From positions 1-34,364 of the forward strand of contig JAAYKF010000026.1 of assembly GCA_012522535.1 (NCBI GenBank): 34,364 nucleotides of DNA, in the 5' to 3' direction. A program made the translations under genes and the position numbers. The notes under the pieces were generated by a model that had not been told where the DNA came from, ran no database searches, and saw only the letters and a list, made by a program, of their open reading frames with translations. The stretch comes from Bacteroidales bacterium (GTDB taxonomy: Bacteria > Bacteroidota > Bacteroidia > Bacteroidales > WCHB1-69). Shown here one piece after another: positions 19,147-33,942 of the stretch; position 1 is the first letter of the stretch, and every line of letters starts with the position of its first letter.

Positions 19147-21528
19147 CTAAATATATTTCACCGTTACCCAAATATTTGTATTTCGGCCTTTGTCGTCGGT
19201 GCAGGATATTTTCACTTCTCCCTCGGGGGGTATAAAGAAGATTTTTTCTTTGGCTAAAGCCTTTTTCAGAAGTTTGTCGTTTACGTACCACCACACATTT
19301 TCTACCGAATTTTCCACATTGGCTTTGAGCATCATTTTTTGATTTTCGTTGGCGATAAAAATATACTCAACCCCTTCTGTTAGCGAGCTTATAACAGGTC
19401 CATTTTGCGAAAAAACTTTAGTACAATTTTCATTATGCGGAGGAATTTTGTCGTAGGGTATATTTTCTTCTTCAAAAAATGCAATAACCTCAGCTGGATA
19501 ATGGCGATAAAGTTTGCGCTTCACGTTGCTTTCGGGCTTGCAAAACCTGCAATACGACTCGGTTTCGTTTACATCTGTAAAGACCTCAATTTTATGCTGA
19601 CAACGATTATTGGGCGATATTCCGGGTATATAGGTATCGATGGTTAAATCTTCGCAAAAGTCGTTAGGGATACTTCCACTTTCGGAGCAAACTTCCCAAT
19701 AGTCAATACTTTGTGGAGGTATAAACCAATCTTGCTCTTGCTTATTATCGATGGCATTGAAAATCTGAAAAAGCAGCGGTGTGGCAACATTTGCCCCTGT
19801 TAGCTCAGGTGTTCCACGACCATCAAAATTTCCCACCCAAACTCCAACTGTATATTTTCTGTTGTAGCCAATACTCCAAGCATCACGTCTGCCATAGGAT
19901 GTACCTGTTTTCCAGGCAATTTTTGGAGCTGTACTAAAGTCGCCCCAATTGGAAGGAAAGTCGGGACCCTCCACCTTAGAAAGCATTTGGGTAATCATAA
20001 ATGCCGATGCTGAACTTATTATTCTTTGCGGCTTCTCCACCTCTTGACCAGAATAGAGGGTTGCCTTTTTGTAGATTCCACCCCTTGCAAAGGCTGAAAA
20101 CAAATTCGTTAGCTCCTCCAAGCTCACACCGCAACCACCAAGAATTAGCGATAAGCCCAGATTTTTCTTATCTTTTGCTATTTGTTTGAAACCAGATTTT
20201 ATAAGCAAATTGATAAAATTATTCACGCCCACTTCATCTAAAAGTTTTACCGAAGGCAAATTTAGCGACAGCGTCAAAGCCTGCTCAATGCTCACTAATC
20301 CACGAAATCTGCTATCGTAATTTCCAGGATTGTAGCCCGAAAAATTATAGGGCACATCTGGCACTTTGGTTTTGGGTGTAATTAGCCCTAAATCCAAGGC
20401 ATGGGCATAAATCAGGGGCTTTAAGGCACTCCCCGGCGAACGGATAGCCACCACCCCATCAACTTGCCCAGAAGAGTTGTTGTCGAAAAAATCGTCGGAA
20501 CCAATATAGGCAACAACTTTTGCCGATATATTATCAATAATCAAAACTGAAGCATTATTTATATTATTGAACTTCAGGGGCTTAACATAGTTATACACCA
20601 AATTTTCGGCTCTGGCTTGAATTTCGTCCGAAATTGTGCTAACAATCTTATTTTCACCACTATTCCATCGGCAGAGCCTATGCGAAAGATGTGGAGCTTT
20701 GTGGGGCCGCTCCCTTCTTTCAAAATTCAATTCTTCATCAAAAGCATCTTCAATCTGAGCTTTATCAAAGAGCTTACTTTTAGAAAATTGCTTTAACCAA
20801 TAATTTCTTTTCTGTAATAAATCATCGGCATCGCCATGAATTATATTGGGGAAGTTGGGTATTATGGACAGAATCACCATTTGCGATAGGCTCAGAGTTT
20901 CGGGCTTTTGGTTATAATAGAAAAATGCTGCAGTTTTTACCCCTTCAATATTTCCACCATAGGGAATGTGATTTAGATAGAGCTGTAAAATTTCATCTTT
21001 ACTATATTTAGACTCTATTTGCAGTGCGCGAAACATCTCAATAAATTTGTTTCCATAGGTTCTATCTTTTCTTTCCATCATTCGTGCCAACTGCATTGTA
21101 ATGGTTGATGCACCAAGCTTTCGCTTTGATTTGAAAATATTATTCCAAGATGCTCGTAAAACGGAAACAGGATTAATTCCATAATGATAATAGAAATATT
21201 TATCTTCTTTTTCCAAAATTGTTTTTTTCAAAACTGGCGTAATTTCGTCCAATTCAGCTTTGAAACGCCATTTATCGGTGCTGTTTAGGGTGGCAAATTG
21301 AATTTCGCCACTCTCAGTTTCCACAATTTGTGAATAGTCATCCAACGCGGGAAGAGGAAATATTTTGTTTAAAATATGAAATAGTAAAAACAAAGAAAAT
21401 AGGGATATTAGAGCATATCTCAGCCACTTTCTTATCCAAATTTTCTTAGCTGTTTTTTTAAAAAAAGCAGATATTTGAAAGAGTTTATTCTTCAAAATAT
21501 TAATATTCAAATATCTGCTTTTGACCAC
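19147..21528 (-). CDS. pbpC: Penicillin-binding protein 1C (bifunctional transglycosylase/transpeptidase)
   Basis: This 793-residue inner-membrane protein polymerises and cross-links peptidoglycan in the periplasm. A transmembrane helix (about 36-56) precedes the GT51 domain, with motif 1 EDKYFYYHYG (Glu108 catalytic) and motif 2 GASTITMQLAR (139-149). The transpeptidase has SALK (Ser367 nucleophile, Lys370) in RSPGSALKPL and KTGT (540-543) in AWKTGTSYGR. A PBP1C-specific C-terminal domain (about 705-790) follows. The start is GTG, since no ATG lies before the membrane helix. It begins 10 bases after the alpha-2-macroglobulin gene, the well-known pbpC/yfhM pairing. Codons 3-22 form a strong terminator-like hairpin, which may attenuate expression. 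Confidence 0.94.
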   Translation of the reverse strand: MVKSRYLNINILKNKLFQISAFFKKTAKKIWIRKWLRYALISLFSLFLLFHILNKIFPLPALDDYSQIVETESGEIQFATLNSTDKWRFKAELDEITPVLKKTILEKEDKYFYYHYGINPVSVLRASWNNIFKSKRKLGASTITMQLARMMERKDRTYGNKFIEMFRALQIESKYSKDEILQLYLNHIPYGGNIEGVKTAAFFYYNQKPETLSLSQMVILSIIPNFPNIIHGDADDLLQKRNYWLKQFSKSKLFDKAQIEDAFDEELNFERRERPHKAPHLSHRLCRWNSGENKIVSTISDEIQARAENLVYNYVKPLKFNNINNASVLIIDNISAKVVAYIGSDDFFDNNSSGQVDGVVAIRSPGSALKPLIYAHALDLGLITPKTKVPDVPYNFSGYNPGNYDSRFRGLVSIEQALTLSLNLPSVKLLDEVGVNNFINLLIKSGFKQIAKDKKNLGLSLILGGCGVSLEELTNLFSAFARGGIYKKATLYSGQEVEKPQRIISSASAFMITQMLSKVEGPDFPSNWGDFSTAPKIAWKTGTSYGRRDAWSIGYNRKYTVGVWVGNFDGRGTPELTGANVATPLLFQIFNAIDNKQEQDWFIPPQSIDYWEVCSESGSIPNDFCEDLTIDTYIPGISPNNRCQHKIEVFTDVNETESYCRFCKPESNVKRKLYRHYPAEVIAFFEEENIPYDKIPPHNENCTKVFSQNGPVISSLTEGVEYIFIANENQKMMLKANVENSVENVWWYVNDKLLKKALAKEKIFFIPPEGEVKISCTDDKGRNTNIWVTVKYI
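21463..21522 (-). terminator. Terminator-like hairpin embedded in the first codons of pbpC
   Basis: On the minus strand, AAAAGCAGATATTTGAA (21522-21506) and TTCAAATATCTGCTTTT (21479-21463) are perfect 17-base arms around a 26-base loop, and the T run extends to seven (21466-21460). Structurally this is a rho-independent terminator just after yfhM, yet it lies downstream of the pbpC GTG (21528) in a frame that must be translated. It could act as an attenuator relieved by ribosomes translating pbpC. Confidence 0.6.
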
Positions 21529-21538
21529 TTTTTATACT

Positions 21539-24500
21539 TTATTGAACTGTAATTGTACCAGTTCCATGGTATGAATAATAGTTTCCGTCGTACATTGCAT
21601 CGGCACTAACCACTCCAATATTAAATCTTCCCGAAGAGACCACTCTCACCATGTAGTAGAAATATTTAATTTTGGAACTTGCTGATGTAAAAAATGTGAT
21701 TTGGTCATCGCGAATATCGGTGTAAGTTGGTGTTGATTTATCTTTAATCCAGGCATATTCACGGTCGTTTCCGATGCGGGGATTTTCAATTTCGAAACAT
21801 GCTGGCAACATATCGCAAATGGCAACATTTTCAACCGTAGAATTGTCAAGACTTGCAACGCCAATTCTAACAATAATTAAATCGTTGGATTTGAATTTGG
21901 AATTGGTAATTTTGTTTCCGCTTCGGTCAAAAAAGCTTCTTCTAACAACAATATTATTATCCAATTCATCCACTTTTCCATCTTTGCTAAATCCTTCAGC
22001 TTCATAGAAATAGTAGAGTTTTCCACTTCCTGATTTCTTCACATTCACAGTAGAATTGGAAATATCTTTTGTAGATACCTGATTTTCATTGTTATAATTA
22101 ACAATCACTCTATTATTATGTGTAAAACTTGCCTTAATATCAGATTTTGCACTTTCGGCAGCCACACTACCCAATGCCAGCAGGGCAAAAGCTTTATCTT
22201 GTGTTGATAGCCATTTTGCACGCTTCAAGTCGTTGGACAATTTGGAAGCCATGGGCAATATTTGTGGATTGTTGCGATCGGTTTTGAAAATTGTATTTAA
22301 AACCAAAGCATTATTTCTGATTGTGGAGCCAAAACTACCATCTGTTTCGCGTTTCACATCTTCGTAGGTATATCTTGCTGGTAGCAAATCTCTGAAAGTG
22401 GATTTATTGCCCGAAAGGGCGAATGCTGCCGCCAAGAGATATTTACCCTCTTGCGTTAAATCCTTATAATTGTCTTTATAATAATTTAGTCGAGATGTGT
22501 TTTTTGAACCTGCCAAAGCTGAGACATATAATGAGTATGGAATTTCGTTACGAATTTTCGACACCACGCTCAGTCTGCCTGCACTATTATAGTAATAATA
22601 ATCTTTCATTTTCTTGGTTCTAGATTCTCTTTCTAAATAATCCACTGCATTTCGAATAGCCGACATTCTCACCTCAAAGCCGGCATTATGGGCTTCAATT
22701 AAGAAGTGAGTGGCATAGGCTGTTCCCCACCACGATTCGGCAAAAGTGCCGGGCCAATAAGTCATAGCACCGCTATATCTTTGCATCGACTGGATTTTAT
22801 GAATTGTCTCTTGGACCAAAAAGTCAGGATTCCACGACATATTTTGATTGTCCTGATTTAGACTTTGGGCAATATCTCTATAATATAGAAGTGGGAAAGC
22901 CACCGAGGTAATTTGCTCCAAACAGCCATAGGGATAGCTAAGCAATTCGCTGATGTTTTTGGTAAACTCAGTAATGGGCGATTTGCTAACAATAAGCTTA
23001 TTGTTTACACTTCCTTTAAGGAAATTTCCACCAATTCTGATAACATCTTCATCTTTGTCAATTACACCAGATTGGTAATGTTTCACAAAACCAGCCGTGG
23101 GTCTGATTGGCACATAAATTTCCTCTTTAAAAGTTTTGCCACCTTGCTCAACAGAGGTTGTGAAAAGTGCTTCGCCAATATCTTTATTGACCCTTGCATT
23201 GAACATTACACGTCTTTCGGAATTGGCTGGAATGCTTAGACTATACTCTTTTTTGCCCAATAGGCTAACCGATTTTTGAACATTAAGTTTCACCACTACA
23301 TTGGCAGCAGTTTTGGTTGTATTGCTCAAAGTTACGGGTATATTAATTAGGTCATCGGGGGTTAAAAATCTGGGCAATGCTGTGCTAATCACTATTGGGT
23401 CGGCAACTATTAGATTTGTTTCGGCAGAGCCAAACTTTTTACCTTTCCATGCCACTGCCATCACTCTAAGACTTCCGGAGAATTGAGGAATTTCGAAACT
23501 ATATGAAACTTTTCCTGTACTATTTTTCACAATTCCGCTCCAATGCGAAATCAATCTAACTCTTTTGTTGGTAAAAGGATTTACTCTTTTGCCCATTTCC
23601 ATGGCGATGTCTCCACCCCATGACGAAAGATTTCTTTTCAGTTCGGGGAATATTTTGGCATAGAAATCATAATTATCCACCTCTAAGGCACGTTTTTGGA
23701 AGAAATATTCAAAAGGATTGGGAGTTTGATAATTATTCATTTGCAGGATACCTTCGTCCACAACAGCAATTGTGAGCTGCGAACCAGCTTCGGCACTAAC
23801 CTCAACAGTTTGCTTTGTTCTGGAAAGCGACTGTTTTGGTGATTTAATTTGCACATCCATTTTGTAATTGGGGTTTGAAACAATTACTGATGAATATCCG
23901 TGGGCAACTGTTAGCGGGATTTCATTGCTAACAAGCGGTCGGATTGCTGTTGCTGATATATAGACATTTGGCATATAGCTCTCTTCGATGGGCAAACTAA
24001 GCTTTGCTGCCTTATCTTCAATTTCCAAAACTTTATAGTCTATTATATTGTCTCTTTCGATGGTAACAATCAATTTTCCTGAGAATGGACATTTGAAAAG
24101 TATTTCGGCATTGTCGCCAATTAAATATTCTTCTTTGTCTGTTTCTATTAAAATCTCGCCCTCTTTGTCAACTTCAAAGGAGGAATAATCTGTTGTGCCA
24201 GAGCCATACGACCAGAATTTTCGACCAACATATGATTTGGCATTTGCATCCACATAAATCTTAATTTCGTACTCACCAGAAACTGGTGGAACAAAGTCTA
24301 AATACGCCTTTCCGTTGGAAAAACTCACATCTTTGTTTACCAATTCAATCTCTCTTTTATTGGATAAATAGCTATATGAAGAGCCACTTCGAGCCATGGA
24401 ACTTTGATATTCGTTGCGAACAATTTTCACACGTGCTTTGGCTCCATTTACCAATTTTTCGTTTTTGTCTAATGCCACAAAAGCAAACTTCATATTTCGC

Positions 24501-26944
24501 TGAATGGGCACATAATAGTCGAAATGGCGTAAGCCAAAATATACACTTTGTGTAGATATTTTGAAGGTTGTATGACGATTTACAGGTCTATTATTTTCAT
24601 CAAATACGGCAGTATAAACCCTACCCGAAAGCATTCCAATATTCTCATTTGCTGGCATTTGGAAGCTAACAGAAGCTTTTCCATCTTTGTCGGTTTTGGT
24701 GTTTTTCAATACATTATCAAAATAAAAACTGTTGGGAATTGATATATTAAACCTGTAGTCGCTATATTTTTTGGGTGAAATATTTTGAGTATTGATTCTC
24801 ATTTCGCACTCCACTTCCCTATTTGTTGCTGGCGTTCCAAAGAAATTTTCAGCTGTAATATCTAATTTCAGATTGTCCTTTGGTATCATTTCCGTTGAGC
24901 TGGATTTCACTGTAACCGACAATCTATCGGGCATAAACTCTTCGCACAAAATTCTGTATGAATTGTATAGAACGTCATTTCCAGAGTAAACCTCAACGGT
25001 ATATGAGCCTGTTAATGCAGCATCGGGGAGTTTAAAAGAAACAGCACTTGCCCCCTCGTTGTTGGTGGTTTTTCTAAAGGTTGAAAAATGTCGTCCGCTG
25101 GGATTTACCACTCTGAATTTCAGAGGAATATCTTTGGGTGTTTCCCAATCTAAGGTTCTGATTATGGTGTTTATATGGACAGAATCGCCGGGACGATAGA
25201 GTTTTCTGTCGCCATAAATAAAGACATCAAAATCGGAGGCATTGGTATATTTTCCACCAACCTCATATCTGGAAGTTTCCACATTGCTGTGGTCTAAATA
25301 GATGTAGTTGAAGTCATTGCCATGACGCAATGTGAGCATTCCTACCCTGAATTTTTTGAATATCTCGGAGGTATTTTCCAGAAGTAAAAAACCATCTTTT
25401 GAGGTTTTAGCCGAGTGAATTTTTTGGTTATTAGTGCTTATAAAATCTACATTTACACCTTCTAGGGGGGTTGCATCAAGGATTGAGTTTGTGGCAATAA
25501 GGGCCGAATTTTTCCCAAATTTAGCTATAACCCCAATATCCGAAATCGAGACCATAATTGCATCTCGCAACCACCTTCTTTTGGCATCCTGAACGGCAAC
25601 AACATAAATACCATTTCCGGGGTCTTTTCTGTTTAATTCATTAATATCCAAATGCAAAAGTCGTCCATTTATATGCAATGGCAATTGGGTTGACTCAAGT
25701 GTTTTTTCATACACCTGCATTCCATAATCTGCATCGCCTTGCCACTCATAAAAGTCGTACCACTCTCTTTCAAATCCGCTATCATCCCAATAGTAGTCAT
25801 AGGATTTTCCCTTACGGAGATAGTGAATTATATTGTTTTCGAAGATTTTAAATACGCTTACTTTTATAGTCTCAACACCACCCAAACTTATACCAACGTT
25901 TCCATTACCACGTGAGGATAAATAATTGTCATCACCATTGGCAAAAGAGATATAAGGTTTTGACTTACTGAAACTTACCGATTGAGTATAATCATTTTCC
26001 AAACTTGCTCCCAAAACGCTTCTAACAGCTTTTTTCACTCTAATTTCGTATGTTTTATCCTCTTCAAAATCGCCAATAAGTCTTACAATGTTATTTTGTA
26101 CATCAATTTTATGTGCAACATTGGGTTTAACCGTAATTAAGTCCTTAAAATTATCATTTAAAATTGGCTGTGTGAAGAAAATATTTACCGTGCCTTCGCC
26201 TTGCACCATTTCATTTGTGATGGCACTCACCATCAACTTAGAACGTACTGGAATCGAGGCTGTTACACTTTGTTGTTTTCCAATTGTTTTATCTGTTTTT
26301 GCTACGAATAAATTTTCTTCAACTACTATTTTGAGAGGAATTTCTTCTGCTCCTATTCCTGCTGGCGGATTAAATTCAAGGCTTACATCATCACTTTCGC
26401 CTGAGCTAATTATTTTATGTGGAATAATATAATCACCCACAAATACTTTTAAATTTTCATCTAAATTTGAAATCGAAACTGGGTAATTAAAGGCTATATC
26501 AACGCCGATAATCACATCATTTCCATTTATGGCAGACAACCCCCAATAGGCTTTGGCAGCTTCTAACTTTAAATCAGGAGTTTGAAATTCAAAAATCGAT
26601 TTGGGGAGTGAAATTTTTTGCTCACTCAAATTGGCTATCTCCTTATTGAGTTTAGCCTCATATTTTGTGGCTGGGTGAAATCCACTTTCGGGTGAAAAGA
26701 CCAGCTCCGATGGCGATATCCACTGGAAACGCCCATTTACATTAGGAGTAAAACTTATATAAGAAGCTGTATCCCATTTGTTTAGCATTGATTCTGGGGC
26801 TATGTCTTTATCAAATTTAAAACTTAAATTTTGTTGTAAATCAATTTCAGCTTCGAAATTTGTTCTAACTATACTTACTTTGTTTGTTTGACAGGAAAAC
26901 AAAAGAAAAACCATGATACTGACGGCGCAAAGGAGTCTTTTCAT
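21539..26944 (-). CDS. yfhM: Bacterial alpha-2-macroglobulin (MG2/A2M family) lipoprotein
   Basis: This 1801-residue protein opens with a lipoprotein signal, MKRLLCAVSIMVFLLFSC, whose LFSC lipobox places Cys18 as the lipidated residue. MG domains fill the N-terminal half (including KLYRPGDSVHINTIIRTLDW, the MG2 region, about 580-600). The A2M core (ISHWSGIVKNSTGKVSYSF, about 1130-1150) follows, then the thioester motif GCLEQ (Cys1341-Leu-Glu-Gln1344) and the helical thioester domain (about 1330-1620). Intact CLEQ means it can trap attacking proteases covalently. The family guards the periplasm and works with PBP1C, encoded 10 bases downstream. No exact consensus promoter is visible upstream of 26944. 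Confidence 0.93.
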   Translation of the reverse strand: MKRLLCAVSIMVFLLFSCQTNKVSIVRTNFEAEIDLQQNLSFKFDKDIAPESMLNKWDTASYISFTPNVNGRFQWISPSELVFSPESGFHPATKYEAKLNKEIANLSEQKISLPKSIFEFQTPDLKLEAAKAYWGLSAINGNDVIIGVDIAFNYPVSISNLDENLKVFVGDYIIPHKIISSGESDDVSLEFNPPAGIGAEEIPLKIVVEENLFVAKTDKTIGKQQSVTASIPVRSKLMVSAITNEMVQGEGTVNIFFTQPILNDNFKDLITVKPNVAHKIDVQNNIVRLIGDFEEDKTYEIRVKKAVRSVLGASLENDYTQSVSFSKSKPYISFANGDDNYLSSRGNGNVGISLGGVETIKVSVFKIFENNIIHYLRKGKSYDYYWDDSGFEREWYDFYEWQGDADYGMQVYEKTLESTQLPLHINGRLLHLDINELNRKDPGNGIYVVAVQDAKRRWLRDAIMVSISDIGVIAKFGKNSALIATNSILDATPLEGVNVDFISTNNQKIHSAKTSKDGFLLLENTSEIFKKFRVGMLTLRHGNDFNYIYLDHSNVETSRYEVGGKYTNASDFDVFIYGDRKLYRPGDSVHINTIIRTLDWETPKDIPLKFRVVNPSGRHFSTFRKTTNNEGASAVSFKLPDAALTGSYTVEVYSGNDVLYNSYRILCEEFMPDRLSVTVKSSSTEMIPKDNLKLDITAENFFGTPATNREVECEMRINTQNISPKKYSDYRFNISIPNSFYFDNVLKNTKTDKDGKASVSFQMPANENIGMLSGRVYTAVFDENNRPVNRHTTFKISTQSVYFGLRHFDYYVPIQRNMKFAFVALDKNEKLVNGAKARVKIVRNEYQSSMARSGSSYSYLSNKREIELVNKDVSFSNGKAYLDFVPPVSGEYEIKIYVDANAKSYVGRKFWSYGSGTTDYSSFEVDKEGEILIETDKEEYLIGDNAEILFKCPFSGKLIVTIERDNIIDYKVLEIEDKAAKLSLPIEESYMPNVYISATAIRPLVSNEIPLTVAHGYSSVIVSNPNYKMDVQIKSPKQSLSRTKQTVEVSAEAGSQLTIAVVDEGILQMNNYQTPNPFEYFFQKRALEVDNYDFYAKIFPELKRNLSSWGGDIAMEMGKRVNPFTNKRVRLISHWSGIVKNSTGKVSYSFEIPQFSGSLRVMAVAWKGKKFGSAETNLIVADPIVISTALPRFLTPDDLINIPVTLSNTTKTAANVVVKLNVQKSVSLLGKKEYSLSIPANSERRVMFNARVNKDIGEALFTTSVEQGGKTFKEEIYVPIRPTAGFVKHYQSGVIDKDEDVIRIGGNFLKGSVNNKLIVSKSPITEFTKNISELLSYPYGCLEQITSVAFPLLYYRDIAQSLNQDNQNMSWNPDFLVQETIHKIQSMQRYSGAMTYWPGTFAESWWGTAYATHFLIEAHNAGFEVRMSAIRNAVDYLERESRTKKMKDYYYYNSAGRLSVVSKIRNEIPYSLYVSALAGSKNTSRLNYYKDNYKDLTQEGKYLLAAAFALSGNKSTFRDLLPARYTYEDVKRETDGSFGSTIRNNALVLNTIFKTDRNNPQILPMASKLSNDLKRAKWLSTQDKAFALLALGSVAAESAKSDIKASFTHNNRVIVNYNNENQVSTKDISNSTVNVKKSGSGKLYYFYEAEGFSKDGKVDELDNNIVVRRSFFDRSGNKITNSKFKSNDLIIVRIGVASLDNSTVENVAICDMLPACFEIENPRIGNDREYAWIKDKSTPTYTDIRDDQITFFTSASSKIKYFYYMVRVVSSGRFNIGVVSADAMYDGNYYSYHGTGTITVQ

Positions 26945-28866: not shown

Positions 28867-31761
28867 TTAATTTTTATTGCAAATAATATCATAAGGACAA
28901 TATATGCAATCATTCACTTCCTCTGTTTGGGTAAAGGGCAAATTCTTATTATATATATGTGTAGTCAAAAATTCTGAAAGCTCCTTTTCAAATAAATTTA
29001 ATGTCTCAAGTTTTATCACATTGGCATCTACTTTATCTCCAATTTTAAGGTCAAAATATGGGTTCCTTCTTCGTAATGATGCAATTTTTGAGGACAAAAA
29101 CTCCAAATTCTTATTATATTCTGACAAACTTTCATCTTTCATAAAAGAGAGTGCATAGCACATAAGCTGCAAAGCCTTGGCTTTTTCCCTTGGTCCACTA
29201 CTTTTCTTTTCCGTTTTTTCCAAATTATAAAGCAGCTCTTTTATATCCGAAATAACAACTTCTTTATTATCAACAGAACCAGTTTTGTAATCTATTACAT
29301 TCACCACACCATCAATCTTTTCAATGCTATCGGCAATACCTGTCAAATAGACCACAGAACCCTCCACAGCATCTACAGAAATTCCATGTTGAAGCTTAAC
29401 TTCTTGAGCAATGGGAATAATTTCCACATTATCATTTATTAATTCTATTTGTAAACTCAAATATTCGGAGACATATTTTTGAACAACCTCAAAAGCTATG
29501 GCATTTCTCCCACTTTGCAAATCATCTTTTGTGAATTTGTTTTTCTCAAAAGCTTTTATACTCAACTCTTTGATTTTATCATGGTTGAATTGCTTAAAAT
29601 CATTGGCTACAAGAACCACATTGGGCGTAAAAGTTCCATATATATCTTCTAAAACTTCATGAATAATTGTCCCCAACAAAGCATAATCAGGGTCTTCCAT
29701 AATTTCATCAGCCTCTTTAATTTTCTCTACATATCTGAAATAATATTTAAGCGGACACTGAATATAGGTAGATATTGCTGAAGGCGAAATATAATTTATA
29801 GACTTTAATTTATTGAAAACTTCATCTGTTTTTTTAATTATAATTTCATTATTTTGGGAGCTTTCATAATCAAAATCTAAAACTTTTGATGTGATTTTAA
29901 TATTGGGATATCTTTTAGAAATATCATATTCCAATTGACGAATAAATCTACTTTTTTCGGCTTTGCCATCGGCACTGGAACCCAAATATAGCAAGCTTAT
30001 ATTTTTGGCTCTATACAATAATCTATAAAAGTGATAAGCAAAAACTGCATCTTTTTGAATATGAGAGTATAGCCCCAAATGCCTCCTTAAATCAAAGGGT
30101 AAAAGCGAATTATGTGTTTTTCCAGCAGGCAAAACAGACTCATTAACCGAAAGCATAATCACATTATTGAAGTCCAACAGTCGAGTTTCCAAAAAGCCCA
30201 TCAATTGCGGTCCTTGGTGAGCATCACCAGAAAAAGACAATGTTTGAGACGATAGTTTTGAAAAGAAAATCTGACTCAATTCATCAATCTTTAAATTTAT
30301 TTTGTAGCTCTCCAATGCCGAAATAATATCTTTGAAAATATCTTCAAAAACAACAATGAAAGATTTTAGAATTGTGGAAACTGAACTTTTGTTTTCAATG
30401 TTTGGATATAAATCTTCAATACTATTTAAAACTTTTAGAATTAGTCTTAAAAAATCTACGGCATTTTCATATCTGTTAAAAAGCTCGCCAATGGCTTCCC
30501 AAATAGCCTGATTTTCAATTAAATTTTCAACTCCTTTTTGGGTGTAATAGCTAATGTTTTTCGATAAAATTGTTGCTACTACATTATTATTATAGTCTAA
30601 ATTATCCTTAAAAAGTTTTTGAATATATGGGTGCGATAAAATGGCAATTAAGTCCTTATAGTAGTATAGAGCCTCCTTTTTTCCCTCGCTGTGCCTTTGA
30701 CTGTTTGTGTGCAAATCGAAAAGCAAACCAACAAACTTTGCTGGCATTAAGTTGCTTAAACTCAAGCCCATAGTAATATTTACATCTTCGGGAATGGAGT
30801 TTAGTAGCAAGGGCAAAACCGTTTCATCTACTGGAATTAAAACTGTATTCTGCTCTTTATTCTTCGAAACAATTTTATGGAAAATAGAGGCGGCATACTT
30901 CGCTTGAGCTAAATCGCTGGGAGCCTCAATAATTTCGATATTTTTATCTGATAAAAAATGTTCTGCAACAAAAGTAGTATCATTGTCTATCCCCAAAAAC
31001 TCCAAATTTTTACGGATAAATATTCCAGTTTTATCTTCACTATTTTTTTTCAATAAATCTTTGTCAATATCCCAATAAAAGTCTGCTAATCCCTCAACCT
31101 TCAACTGTTTCATTATGTGCAACTCACTCTCTGTAAGGGCATTGAAACCGCAAAACAGTAACTTTTCCCATCTATTTTTAACTTTGTTGGGATTAAAACT
31201 TCCAACAGCTTGTCGATAGTATAAACCTTGATATGCTAAGTTTTGATCCAATAATTTCTCTCTAATATCTTTGTAGAAAAATTCAAGTTTTTTGAAAAAA
31301 TTCAGATAGTTTTTTTGTAAGTCTGTTAATTGATTTTCGGGAATATCATACATGCTCAACTCTCTGATGCTTGTGAGGGACGAAAAAGCTGCTTCCCCAT
31401 TTTTTAGGTGCAAATCTATTTCGTTTATATCATTTAAAAAAAGCGTAGCCCAGCCCACAAACTTCTTGAAATCATTTTTTTCATCAAACTCGTCTTGCTC
31501 AGGAATTGAGTCTCTGAAAATTTTATTCAGCATAAGTAAAAGCTGTAGATTATCTATTTTTTGTAAGCCCGATAAATCCAACATCAGCTCATCAATGGTA
31601 AGAAATTCTGGGAGCATTAAAGTTTCTCCACTATGCTTATGAAGCTCGTTTACCAACAATCTTTGACTTCTTTTTGTTGGTGTTACAATGCAAATATCTG
31701 CTAAATTTTCGGAGTAACTTTTGGAAATTTCCTCAGCTAAAAGTTCTAAAAATGTTTTCAT
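28867..31761 (-). CDS. AddB-like PD-(D/E)XK nuclease / degenerate helicase
   Basis: This 964-residue cytoplasmic protein resembles AddB, a subunit of the AddAB recombination nuclease. The N-terminal Walker-type region reads VTPTKRSQRLLVNEL, without a GKT motif, so helicase ATPase activity is probably lost, as in other AddB-like chains. The C-terminal nuclease (about 660-964) has His701 in GTIIHEVLEDIY, Asp824-x-Lys826 in VIDYKTG, and four cysteines (Cys669, Cys952, Cys955, Cys961) placed like the 4Fe-4S cluster of AddB. An AddA-type helicase gene is not in this window. Its ATG overlaps the stop of the upstream nucleotidyltransferase gene (ATGA), so it belongs to that operon. Confidence 0.85.
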   Translation of the reverse strand: MKTFLELLAEEISKSYSENLADICIVTPTKRSQRLLVNELHKHSGETLMLPEFLTIDELMLDLSGLQKIDNLQLLLMLNKIFRDSIPEQDEFDEKNDFKKFVGWATLFLNDINEIDLHLKNGEAAFSSLTSIRELSMYDIPENQLTDLQKNYLNFFKKLEFFYKDIREKLLDQNLAYQGLYYRQAVGSFNPNKVKNRWEKLLFCGFNALTESELHIMKQLKVEGLADFYWDIDKDLLKKNSEDKTGIFIRKNLEFLGIDNDTTFVAEHFLSDKNIEIIEAPSDLAQAKYAASIFHKIVSKNKEQNTVLIPVDETVLPLLLNSIPEDVNITMGLSLSNLMPAKFVGLLFDLHTNSQRHSEGKKEALYYYKDLIAILSHPYIQKLFKDNLDYNNNVVATILSKNISYYTQKGVENLIENQAIWEAIGELFNRYENAVDFLRLILKVLNSIEDLYPNIENKSSVSTILKSFIVVFEDIFKDIISALESYKINLKIDELSQIFFSKLSSQTLSFSGDAHQGPQLMGFLETRLLDFNNVIMLSVNESVLPAGKTHNSLLPFDLRRHLGLYSHIQKDAVFAYHFYRLLYRAKNISLLYLGSSADGKAEKSRFIRQLEYDISKRYPNIKITSKVLDFDYESSQNNEIIIKKTDEVFNKLKSINYISPSAISTYIQCPLKYYFRYVEKIKEADEIMEDPDYALLGTIIHEVLEDIYGTFTPNVVLVANDFKQFNHDKIKELSIKAFEKNKFTKDDLQSGRNAIAFEVVQKYVSEYLSLQIELINDNVEIIPIAQEVKLQHGISVDAVEGSVVYLTGIADSIEKIDGVVNVIDYKTGSVDNKEVVISDIKELLYNLEKTEKKSSGPREKAKALQLMCYALSFMKDESLSEYNKNLEFLSSKIASLRRRNPYFDLKIGDKVDANVIKLETLNLFEKELSEFLTTHIYNKNLPFTQTEEVNDCIYCPYDIICNKN

Positions 31762-32507
31762 ACAAAGAATTTATGGAAATATTTTTCGGCCTCTTTCAAA
31801 TCGTCTGGTTTTCCCACATCCGACCAATAATCGGCAATATCAACATAAGCTTTTATCTCATGTTTTTTGGATAGTTCCAAATACATTTCGGTGGTTGAAA
31901 ACTTTGGTTTTTCAGCTTTATAAAGCTGAAAAATTTTAGGATTAATCATATGTATTCCACTGAAAGCCATTGGGATATACTCATCTTGCTGTCGAGTGAT
32001 AATCTCTTGCCCGGTGGTGAAATTTTTCCAGCCACTCAAAATGTAATCTTTGCTAAACAAAAAGTATCTTGATGTAAATCTATCACGTACAGCCAAAGTA
32101 GCAATTGCTTTATTATCAAGATGTTGCGAAAGCATTCTATCTATATCGATATTACTCATAACATCGCAATTGTGCAACAAAAAAGGCTCATCGCCAAAAA
32201 AATGCGATGCTTTAAAAAGTCCACCACCTGTATCCAATAACTGGGACGATTCATCAGAGATGTGTAGATTTATATTTCCCTTGTAATGGGCTGCAAAGTC
32301 AATTATTTTATCTGCAAAATGATGAACATTTATCACAACATCTGTGTATGCAAACTTTTCCAACTTGCGTAAAACAATTTCCAAAAGTGGATATCCATTT
32401 ATCTCCACCAAAGCCTTAGGCATATCTCTTGTTGCACTACCTAAACGTGTTCCAAGTCCGGCTGCAAAAATCATTGCTTTTTTGGGTTTAATCTCCATAT
32501 TTTGCAT
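31758..32507 (-). CDS. murU: MurU-like sugar-1-phosphate nucleotidyltransferase
   Basis: This 249-residue cytoplasmic enzyme of the NTP-transferase fold carries the signature AAGLGTRLGSATRDMPKALVEING (about 15-38), the metal-binding Asp in LLHNCDVMSN (about 110-120) and the late-domain DYWSDVGKPDDL (about 222-233). Short length without a left-handed helix acetyltransferase domain fits MurU, which makes UDP-MurNAc from MurNAc-1-phosphate. The upstream gene encodes an AmgK-like kinase, the known partner of MurU in peptidoglycan recycling. Related hexose-1-phosphate enzymes cannot be excluded. It starts 19 bases after that gene and overlaps the nuclease gene by 4 bases. An alternative start three codons inside (MEIKPKK) is possible. 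Confidence 0.72.
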   Translation of the reverse strand: MQNMEIKPKKAMIFAAGLGTRLGSATRDMPKALVEINGYPLLEIVLRKLEKFAYTDVVINVHHFADKIIDFAAHYKGNINLHISDESSQLLDTGGGLFKASHFFGDEPFLLHNCDVMSNIDIDRMLSQHLDNKAIATLAVRDRFTSRYFLFSKDYILSGWKNFTTGQEIITRQQDEYIPMAFSGIHMINPKIFQLYKAEKPKFSTTEMYLELSKKHEIKAYVDIADYWSDVGKPDDLKEAEKYFHKFFV

Positions 32508-32526
32508 TTTATAAAATTAAAAACTT

Positions 32527-33942
32527 CTATTGCTCACGATGATTTAGAATTACTTTCACTGCATATTTTTCTTCTATATACTTAGAAAAAACCTCTGCAA
32601 AATAGACCGACCTGTGCTGTCCGCCTGTACAACCAAAATTTATTTGCAAATTAGTGAAATTTCTTTCAATATAATTTTGTACGCTAATATCTATTAACGA
32701 TTTCACAGAGTCCTTAAACTGATCCACAACCTCATACTCTTCCAAATAATCTGACACTTCTTTGTCCATTCCAGTGAGGGTTTTATACTCTTCCAAGCGT
32801 CCTGGATTGGGCAAAGCTCTACAATCAAAAATAAAGCCACCGCCGTTGCCACTATCATCCGTTGGCAAGCCTTTTTTAAAGGAGAAACTATTAACTCTAA
32901 CTGTCAAACCTTTATAATCTTTTCCAATATCCATAAGTCTTTCGTTTACTGTTAAACTCTTCAGAACCTCCTTCAGAGTAGGAATTTCAATATCAATTAA
33001 ATCTTTGGAAAGTAAGTTTTTAAGATTTTCCAAAGCGTAAGGAATGCTCATTAAAAAGTGAGTTTTTTTCTCGTAAAAGCCTCTATATCCGTACGCTCCC
33101 ATAGCCTGCATTATACGCACTAAAACAAATGCATAAAAATCTTTTTTGAACTTATTTCTATCTATGGCAATATGTTTTTCTAAGGCATTCAAATATTTTT
33201 CCAATAATAGTTCTCGTATATTTTCACTCAAATCTGCTTTTGCATCATAGAGCAAAGAAGCCAAATCATACTGCAAAGCTCCCCTCCTACCTCCCTGATA
33301 ATCAATAAAATAAATATCATCGCCTTTTAGCATTATATTCCTCGATTGAAAATCTCGGTATAGGAAAAAATCGCTATCTATTTGCGAAAGATATTCTGCA
33401 AAATGATTGAAATCATCTTCCAAACTCTGCTCATCATAGGGGATATGTGCAAGTTTTAGAAAGTAATATTTAAAGTAGTTCAAATCCCACATCATGGACT
33501 GCTTATCAAAGGCTCCGCGCGGGTAGCAATTGGAGTAATTGAAATTTTCGTGTCCTAAAACTTGAAATCGAGGAAGTTCTTCAACCACTTTTAGGTAAAT
33601 ATTTACTACACTTTCGGGGATAAATTCATCTTTCCTCTCTGCTGTTAGTCTGGAATAGAGCGTTTCGTTACCAAAATCCTCCTGTAAATAGGCTGTTTTG
33701 TCATCACTAACAATATAAATTTCGGGTACAGAAAAACCTTTTTCTTTGAAATGTTTTGTGAACTCCAAAAAGGCATTATTCTCCTTCAAATCATCATTCA
33801 CAACCCCAACAGCAGTACCCTTTTGAGAGCTCAATCTGTAATATGTTCTGTTGGAACCTGAAATGGGAAGCGGTGCAATTTTCTCAACATCTTCACCTCT
33901 CCATTTCTTATATAACTCTATCAATAAGTCTTTTTCATTCAT
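32527..33942 (-). CDS. amgK: AmgK-like amino-sugar kinase fused to a RapZ C-terminal domain
   Basis: Starting at ATG 33942 the protein has 471 residues. An in-frame TTG 13 codons upstream is rejected because the -7 box lies between them. Residues about 1-325 form an aminoglycoside-phosphotransferase-type kinase: PISGSNRTYYRL in the nucleotide loop region, YRDFQSRN (catalytic Asp197, Asn202) and FIDYQGGRRG (metal Asp214). AmgK phosphorylates MurNAc/GlcNAc at C1. Residues about 331-471 form a RapZ C-terminal domain, with VNSFSFKKGLP and FGCTGGQHRSV (436-446). In E. coli the RapZ C-terminal domain binds glucosamine-6-phosphate and the small RNA GlmZ. No Walker A RapZ N-terminal ATPase is present. 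It is first in the operon with murU and the nuclease gene. Confidence 0.82.
   Translation of the reverse strand: MNEKDLLIELYKKWRGEDVEKIAPLPISGSNRTYYRLSSQKGTAVGVVNDDLKENNAFLEFTKHFKEKGFSVPEIYIVSDDKTAYLQEDFGNETLYSRLTAERKDEFIPESVVNIYLKVVEELPRFQVLGHENFNYSNCYPRGAFDKQSMMWDLNYFKYYFLKLAHIPYDEQSLEDDFNHFAEYLSQIDSDFFLYRDFQSRNIMLKGDDIYFIDYQGGRRGALQYDLASLLYDAKADLSENIRELLLEKYLNALEKHIAIDRNKFKKDFYAFVLVRIMQAMGAYGYRGFYEKKTHFLMSIPYALENLKNLLSKDLIDIEIPTLKEVLKSLTVNERLMDIGKDYKGLTVRVNSFSFKKGLPTDDSGNGGGFIFDCRALPNPGRLEEYKTLTGMDKEVSDYLEEYEVVDQFKDSVKSLIDISVQNYIERNFTNLQINFGCTGGQHRSVYFAEVFSKYIEEKYAVKVILNHREQ

Follow-up and report, generated by a model that had tools for sequence, protein, structure and literature searches.

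What does a RapZ C-terminal domain (RapZ_C) do on a kinase of cell-wall recycling? The question is raised by a gene in the window, by which we mean the whole 34,364-nucleotide stretch of DNA analyzed here, in which such a domain forms the tail of a kinase that lies next to a MurU-like gene. The preliminary description of this DNA had proposed that the tail tunes the kinase, or an RNA partner, to amino-sugar levels. The reading that we favor, to which we give a probability of just under one half (about 0.48), is that the fusion acts as a bifunctional MurNAc-6-P phosphatase/MurNAc 1-kinase, where we infer the catalysis, the substrate, and the order of the steps.

A kinase with a RapZ-type tail next to a MurU-like gene

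The fusion gene (32527..33942, minus strand), identified as an open reading frame with Pfam and NCBIfam matches, starts with the ATG at 33942 and encodes 471 amino acids plus a stop codon. Residues 1 to 312 (33007..33942, minus strand) make up the kinase part, which the Pfam APH model matches at residues 24 to 254 (E 8.2e-9), and residues 346 to 471 (32530..32907, minus strand) make up the RapZ C-terminal domain, assigned by conservation, by a structure match, and by PF22740 at residues 347 to 470 (E 1.4e-34). The three motifs YRDFQSRN, FIDYQGGRRG, and FGCTGGQHRSV fall on residues 195 to 202, 212 to 221, and 436 to 446. A Pfam search detected no RapZ ATPase (the N-terminal P-loop domain) in the fusion protein, and a whole-genome search returned no PF22740 match other than the fusion gene; with this single match in the genome, there is thus no separate RapZ. 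The preliminary description was therefore correct in reading a kinase with a RapZ-type tail that lacks the RapZ ATPase.

Within the kinase part, the catalytic RDFQSRN motif (33337-33357, minus strand) and the metal-binding Asp214 (33301-33303, minus strand) contain R196, D197, N202, and D214, all invariant among 56 relatives. The AlphaFold model of the whole protein (mean pLDDT of 92) has the AmgK-like protein 3csv as its best structure match, and Pfam, conservation, and this match agree on an APH-fold kinase whose catalytic Asp/Asn/Asp set is intact. The fusion protein resembles AmgK of Pseudomonas in its fold, its catalytic motif, its MurU partner, and its best NCBIfam kinase model, which is AmgK, but it differs from it in the added RapZ_C and in a family score far below the cut-offs of these narrow equivalog models (61 versus 500 bits and 45 versus 550 bits). 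We thus describe the kinase part as AmgK-like, with phosphorylation of MurNAc or GlcNAc at position 1 as its predicted activity.

The MurU-like partner (31758..32507, minus strand), a putative sugar-1-phosphate nucleotidyltransferase of 249 amino acids plus stop, begins 19 bp downstream of the fusion gene on the same strand, and the two genes together span exactly the range that the preliminary description had assigned to the kinase and its partner, 31758-33942. MurU is its best NCBIfam model, although the cut-offs are again missed (111 versus 370 and 106 versus 250 bits). Spacing and strand suggest that the two genes form an operon; promoter and terminator scans gave no informative signal above shuffled sequence. 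Taken together, the AmgK-like kinase, the RapZ_C tail, and the MurU-like partner bear out the proposed link to peptidoglycan recycling. A third gene, encoding an AddB-like/PD-(D/E)XK nuclease (28867..31761, minus strand; PF12705, E 1.8e-27), shares 4 bp with the end of the MurU-like gene and is probably a passenger of the operon. An AddB-like gene follows MurU at two further loci (L002 and L007) as well, and a functional link to the pathway is not evident. Elsewhere in the window (19147-26944, minus strand), a bacterial alpha-2-macroglobulin lies beside a bifunctional penicillin-binding protein with a BiPBP_C domain (PBP1C type), which is a known gene pair.

Kinase, RapZ_C, and MurU travel together

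The preliminary description had proposed a search for the same two-domain architecture across Bacteroidota, and the architecture turned out to be widespread. Of 60 near genomes, 57 encode the fusion protein, at identities down to 40%, and the kinase occurs in 245 of 295 genomes of Bacteroidales (the order being inferred from named relatives), mostly with the RapZ_C tail. Among named genomes, the fusion is present in, for example, Phocaeicola, Bacteroides, Parabacteroides, Tannerella sp., and Carboxylicivirga, and it also occurs in metagenome-assembled genomes (MAGs) labelled Ignavibacteria, Calditrichia, Elusimicrobia, Acidobacteriaceae, Gemmatimonadales, and Delongbacteria. Because it is conserved across hundreds of genomes, the fusion is far beyond chance, and in Bacteroidales the gene normally takes this form, so that there is nothing unusual about it. 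The idea of a lineage-specific oddity is rejected by this distribution. The architecture is probably already visible in domain databases; in the literature searched, no paper names AmgK and RapZ together. An AmgK/MurU route from MurNAc via MurNAc-1-P to UDP-MurNAc has been described in Tannerella forsythia, likewise a member of Bacteroidales, in a paper that mentions no RapZ domain (PMC7670621); our data place the fusion beside MurU in a Tannerella sp. (L115).

Across a sample of the phylum, RapZ_C occurs in 49 of 395 genomes, as a single copy each: 37 copies are fused to the kinase and 12 are short stand-alone ORFs, eight of which sit directly between kinase and MurU, one beside MurU only, and three unlinked. 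Of 79 named fused loci, 57 carry MurU less than 2 kb away and on the same strand. In a set of 80 genomes, kinase and MurU are both present in all of the 49 that carry RapZ_C, including four in which the domain is encoded away from the kinase (G239, G330, G365, and G390), while MurU is found in just 2 of the 31 genomes without it. Kinase, RapZ_C, and the MurU-like gene thus travel together.

Fused and split forms alternate between families (L172, L176, L178, L183, L186, L193, L064-L071, and L104), and the fusion was therefore gained, or split, several times. In G330 and G365, the stand-alone RapZ_C and AnmK lie 11 to 16 kb apart, and the genes between them look unrelated. A different arrangement was seen in G517 (contig C118, L200:795-2207, minus strand), where RapZ_C forms the N terminus of a CofD/GlmR(YvcK)-like protein. 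YvcJ, the RapZ homologue of Bacillus subtilis, is known to bind GlmR, and the protein would therefore be a fusion of two known partners; the contig may be foreign to the MAG in which it was assembled.

A conserved anion pocket and lost RNA contacts

Modeled alone, the tail reaches a mean pLDDT of 94 and superimposes on E. coli RapZ with TM scores of 0.79 to 0.88 (about 0.87 at 34% identity), and Foldseek returned no matching solved fold other than RapZ. Comparison of the tail with E. coli RapZ, which the preliminary description had also suggested, was extended to 73 aligned domains, with the pocket and RNA-contact residues taken from published work (PMC5737377, PMC9841335). In E. coli RapZ numbering, C247, T248, G249, H252, R253, and S254 are kept in 73/73 domains, as are D182, R184, N188, and P189. 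The anion pocket (C247, T248, G249, H252, and R253) is therefore retained throughout, with the exception of H190, which is Gly in all 73. All aligned domains also carry an extra N/H-GGG motif ahead of FDCR (NGGG at residues 366 to 369 of the fusion protein; 32836-32847, minus strand). The C-x5-R-S loop (C438-S445; 32608-32631, minus strand) is present in 161 of the 162 domains of a wider set, the lone exception being a MAG sequence in which His replaces Arg, and the Asp and Arg of FDxR are invariant. Relative to RapZ and YvcJ, the fusion shares the C-terminal domain and the Cys-x5-Arg pocket but lacks the P-loop ATPase, has lost H190, and has gained NGGG; judged by its signature NGGG...FDCR...NPGR...GCTGGQHRS, its RapZ_C is a distinct subfamily. 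A decayed copy was seen in Ancylomarina salipaludis (L130:4881-6398), in which NGGG and NPGR are gone and CTGG has become CVGG.

This pattern bears on the idea of an RNA partner, according to which RapZ_C would bind an RNA and thereby turn the kinase into a regulator that acts through RNA, like RapZ of E. coli. Homology to RapZ and the retention of K170 and R184 speak for it. However, besides H190, the contacts K194, R211, R238, and K251 are lost in most or all of the aligned domains, the basic RNA-binding C-terminal tail is absent or not conserved as basic, and in E. coli the H190A exchange alone abolishes RapZ-promoted cleavage of GlmZ (PMC9841335). With the RNA contacts and the basic tail mostly gone, RNA binding by the RapZ_C of kinase fusions is unlikely, which weakens this part of the preliminary description, and we consider an RNA-based regulator very improbable.

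A sensor would make different use of the pocket: RapZ_C would bind an amino-sugar phosphate such as GlcN6P or MurNAc-6-P and tune the kinase, balancing recycling against new synthesis. The retention of T248, G249, H252, and R253 fits this proposal, whereas the replacement of H190 by Gly in all members and the gain of NGGG do not. Moreover, a pure sensor needs no invariant Cys, although E. coli RapZ also requires C247, and the stand-alone, unlinked domains (G239, G330, G365, and G390) would need to contact the kinase in trans. Alternatively, RapZ_C may serve in dimerization or in docking of MurU, with the pocket used for a bound anion or for substrate handover rather than for chemistry. The RapZ C-terminal domain does dimerize alone (PMC7073468), and fusion, or adjacency to kinase and MurU, suits a scaffold; on the other hand, the invariant positions lie mostly in the pocket loop, FDxR, NP, and NGGG, and a structural part would not be expected to be lost together with AnmK (see below), so that we regard this role as improbable.

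RapZ_C, AnmK, and a candidate phosphatase step

In Pseudomonas, AnmK generates MurNAc-6-P, which MupP dephosphorylates at position 6; AmgK then phosphorylates position 1, and MurU produces UDP-MurNAc (PMC5371407, PMC5371409). If RapZ_C did the work of MupP, it would be expected to be needed in genomes with AnmK and without MurQ and to be dispensable where MurNAc-6-P is not made. RapZ_C is carried by 50 of the 55 AnmK-positive, MurQ-negative genomes, among them the genome of the window, in which AnmK is located at G000:C98:3426-4457 and MurQ was not found. The five others comprise four fragmented MAGs that also lack a detected kinase, and G586. Conversely, 15 kinase-bearing genomes from seven families have no RapZ_C on or beside the kinase; we included G517 here, as its own kinase lacks the domain and its sole RapZ_C is the one on the CofD/GlmR-like protein. 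In this group, AnmK is absent from 14/15, G586 being the one exception, and MurQ from 15/15, while AnmK is absent from 23 of 92 genomes with RapZ_C, and both AnmK and MurQ from 15 of the 92. Fisher tests gave p values of 6e-7 for AnmK and 8e-9 for AnmK or MurQ in these related genomes, uncorrected for ancestry, and 2e-6 for AnmK, likewise uncorrected, if G517 is counted as RapZ_C positive. On the kinase tree, six or more changes are required to explain the domain-less sequences, on poorly supported branches, and an ancestry-aware paired comparison contained one independent pair on supported branches and so had no power.

RapZ_C is therefore absent mainly where AnmK, the maker of MurNAc-6-P, is absent, kinship being uncorrected in this comparison. 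Since most members of one AnmK-less clade keep RapZ_C, loss of AnmK seems to permit, but not to force, loss of the domain. A strict one-to-one link between RapZ_C and AnmK is rejected by the 15 RapZ_C genomes without AnmK and MurQ. In the genome of the window, AnmK adjoins a gene that, judged by eye, is MurF-like (L165:3417-5815 on G000:C98), and this adjacency is another link from recycling to wall synthesis.

Under the bifunctional reading, AnmK would convert anhydro-MurNAc to MurNAc-6-P, RapZ_C would strip off the 6-phosphate via its Cys-x5-Arg loop, as MupP does, the kinase part would then phosphorylate C1 of MurNAc, and MurU would turn the resulting MurNAc-1-P into UDP-MurNAc, with the fusion handing MurNAc from one active site to the other. 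In this scheme, RapZ_C would stand in for MupP alongside AmgK and MurU; MupP itself is a HAD phosphatase, unrelated in fold to RapZ_C. There is precedent for such chemistry: Khan and Goerke noted a likeness between the RapZ pocket and the loop of Cys-dependent tyrosine phosphatases and proposed that GlcN6P is hydrolyzed (PMC7199280); C247S abolishes the function of E. coli RapZ, and crystal density hints at a transformed ligand (PMC9841335); and phosphatase activity has been reported for YvcJ (PMC7525490). In our model, the C-x5-R-S loop likewise connects a strand to a helix, as in Cys-dependent phosphatases. Neither Foldseek nor HMMER against the PDB found a tyrosine-phosphatase fold for RapZ_C; such a fold is rejected, the likeness being confined to the loop.

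For a phosphatase, we count the constant company of kinase and MurU (49/49, even when unlinked), the position of stand-alone domains mostly between these two, the near-invariant loop with the FDxR Asp and Arg, and the 50/55 genomes with AnmK and without MurQ. Against it stand the 15/92 RapZ_C genomes in which no source of MurNAc-6-P was found, G586 with its AnmK and domain-less kinase, the missing tyrosine-phosphatase fold, and E. coli RapZ, which uses the same loop to bind GlcN6P tightly as a sensor. On balance, we propose tentatively, at somewhat less than an even chance, that RapZ_C acts as a Cys-type sugar-phosphate phosphatase in place of MupP and makes the fusion bifunctional, and that the regulatory RapZ of E. 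coli and a wall-sugar enzyme have a common ancestry. A sensor remains the main rival, since one for MurNAc-6-P would likewise track AnmK; we hold it to be possible, if rather doubtful, and do not favor it. Of the tuning role put forward in the preliminary description, the mostly kept pocket still stands, but because RapZ_C tracks AnmK and its Cys-x5-Arg loop is invariant, a catalytic step before the kinase fits at least as well.

Fosfomycin tolerance and wall recycling are both connected with the MurU bypass, whose phosphatase, MupP, was discovered only in 2017, in Pseudomonas. The pattern of gain and loss suggests that RapZ_C may be a missing phosphatase of wall recycling and not a sensor alone. 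If this is true, RapZ_C would complete the wall-recycling pathway of Bacteroidota and some other phyla, and the RapZ C-terminal domain would gain a role as an enzyme, open to direct assay.
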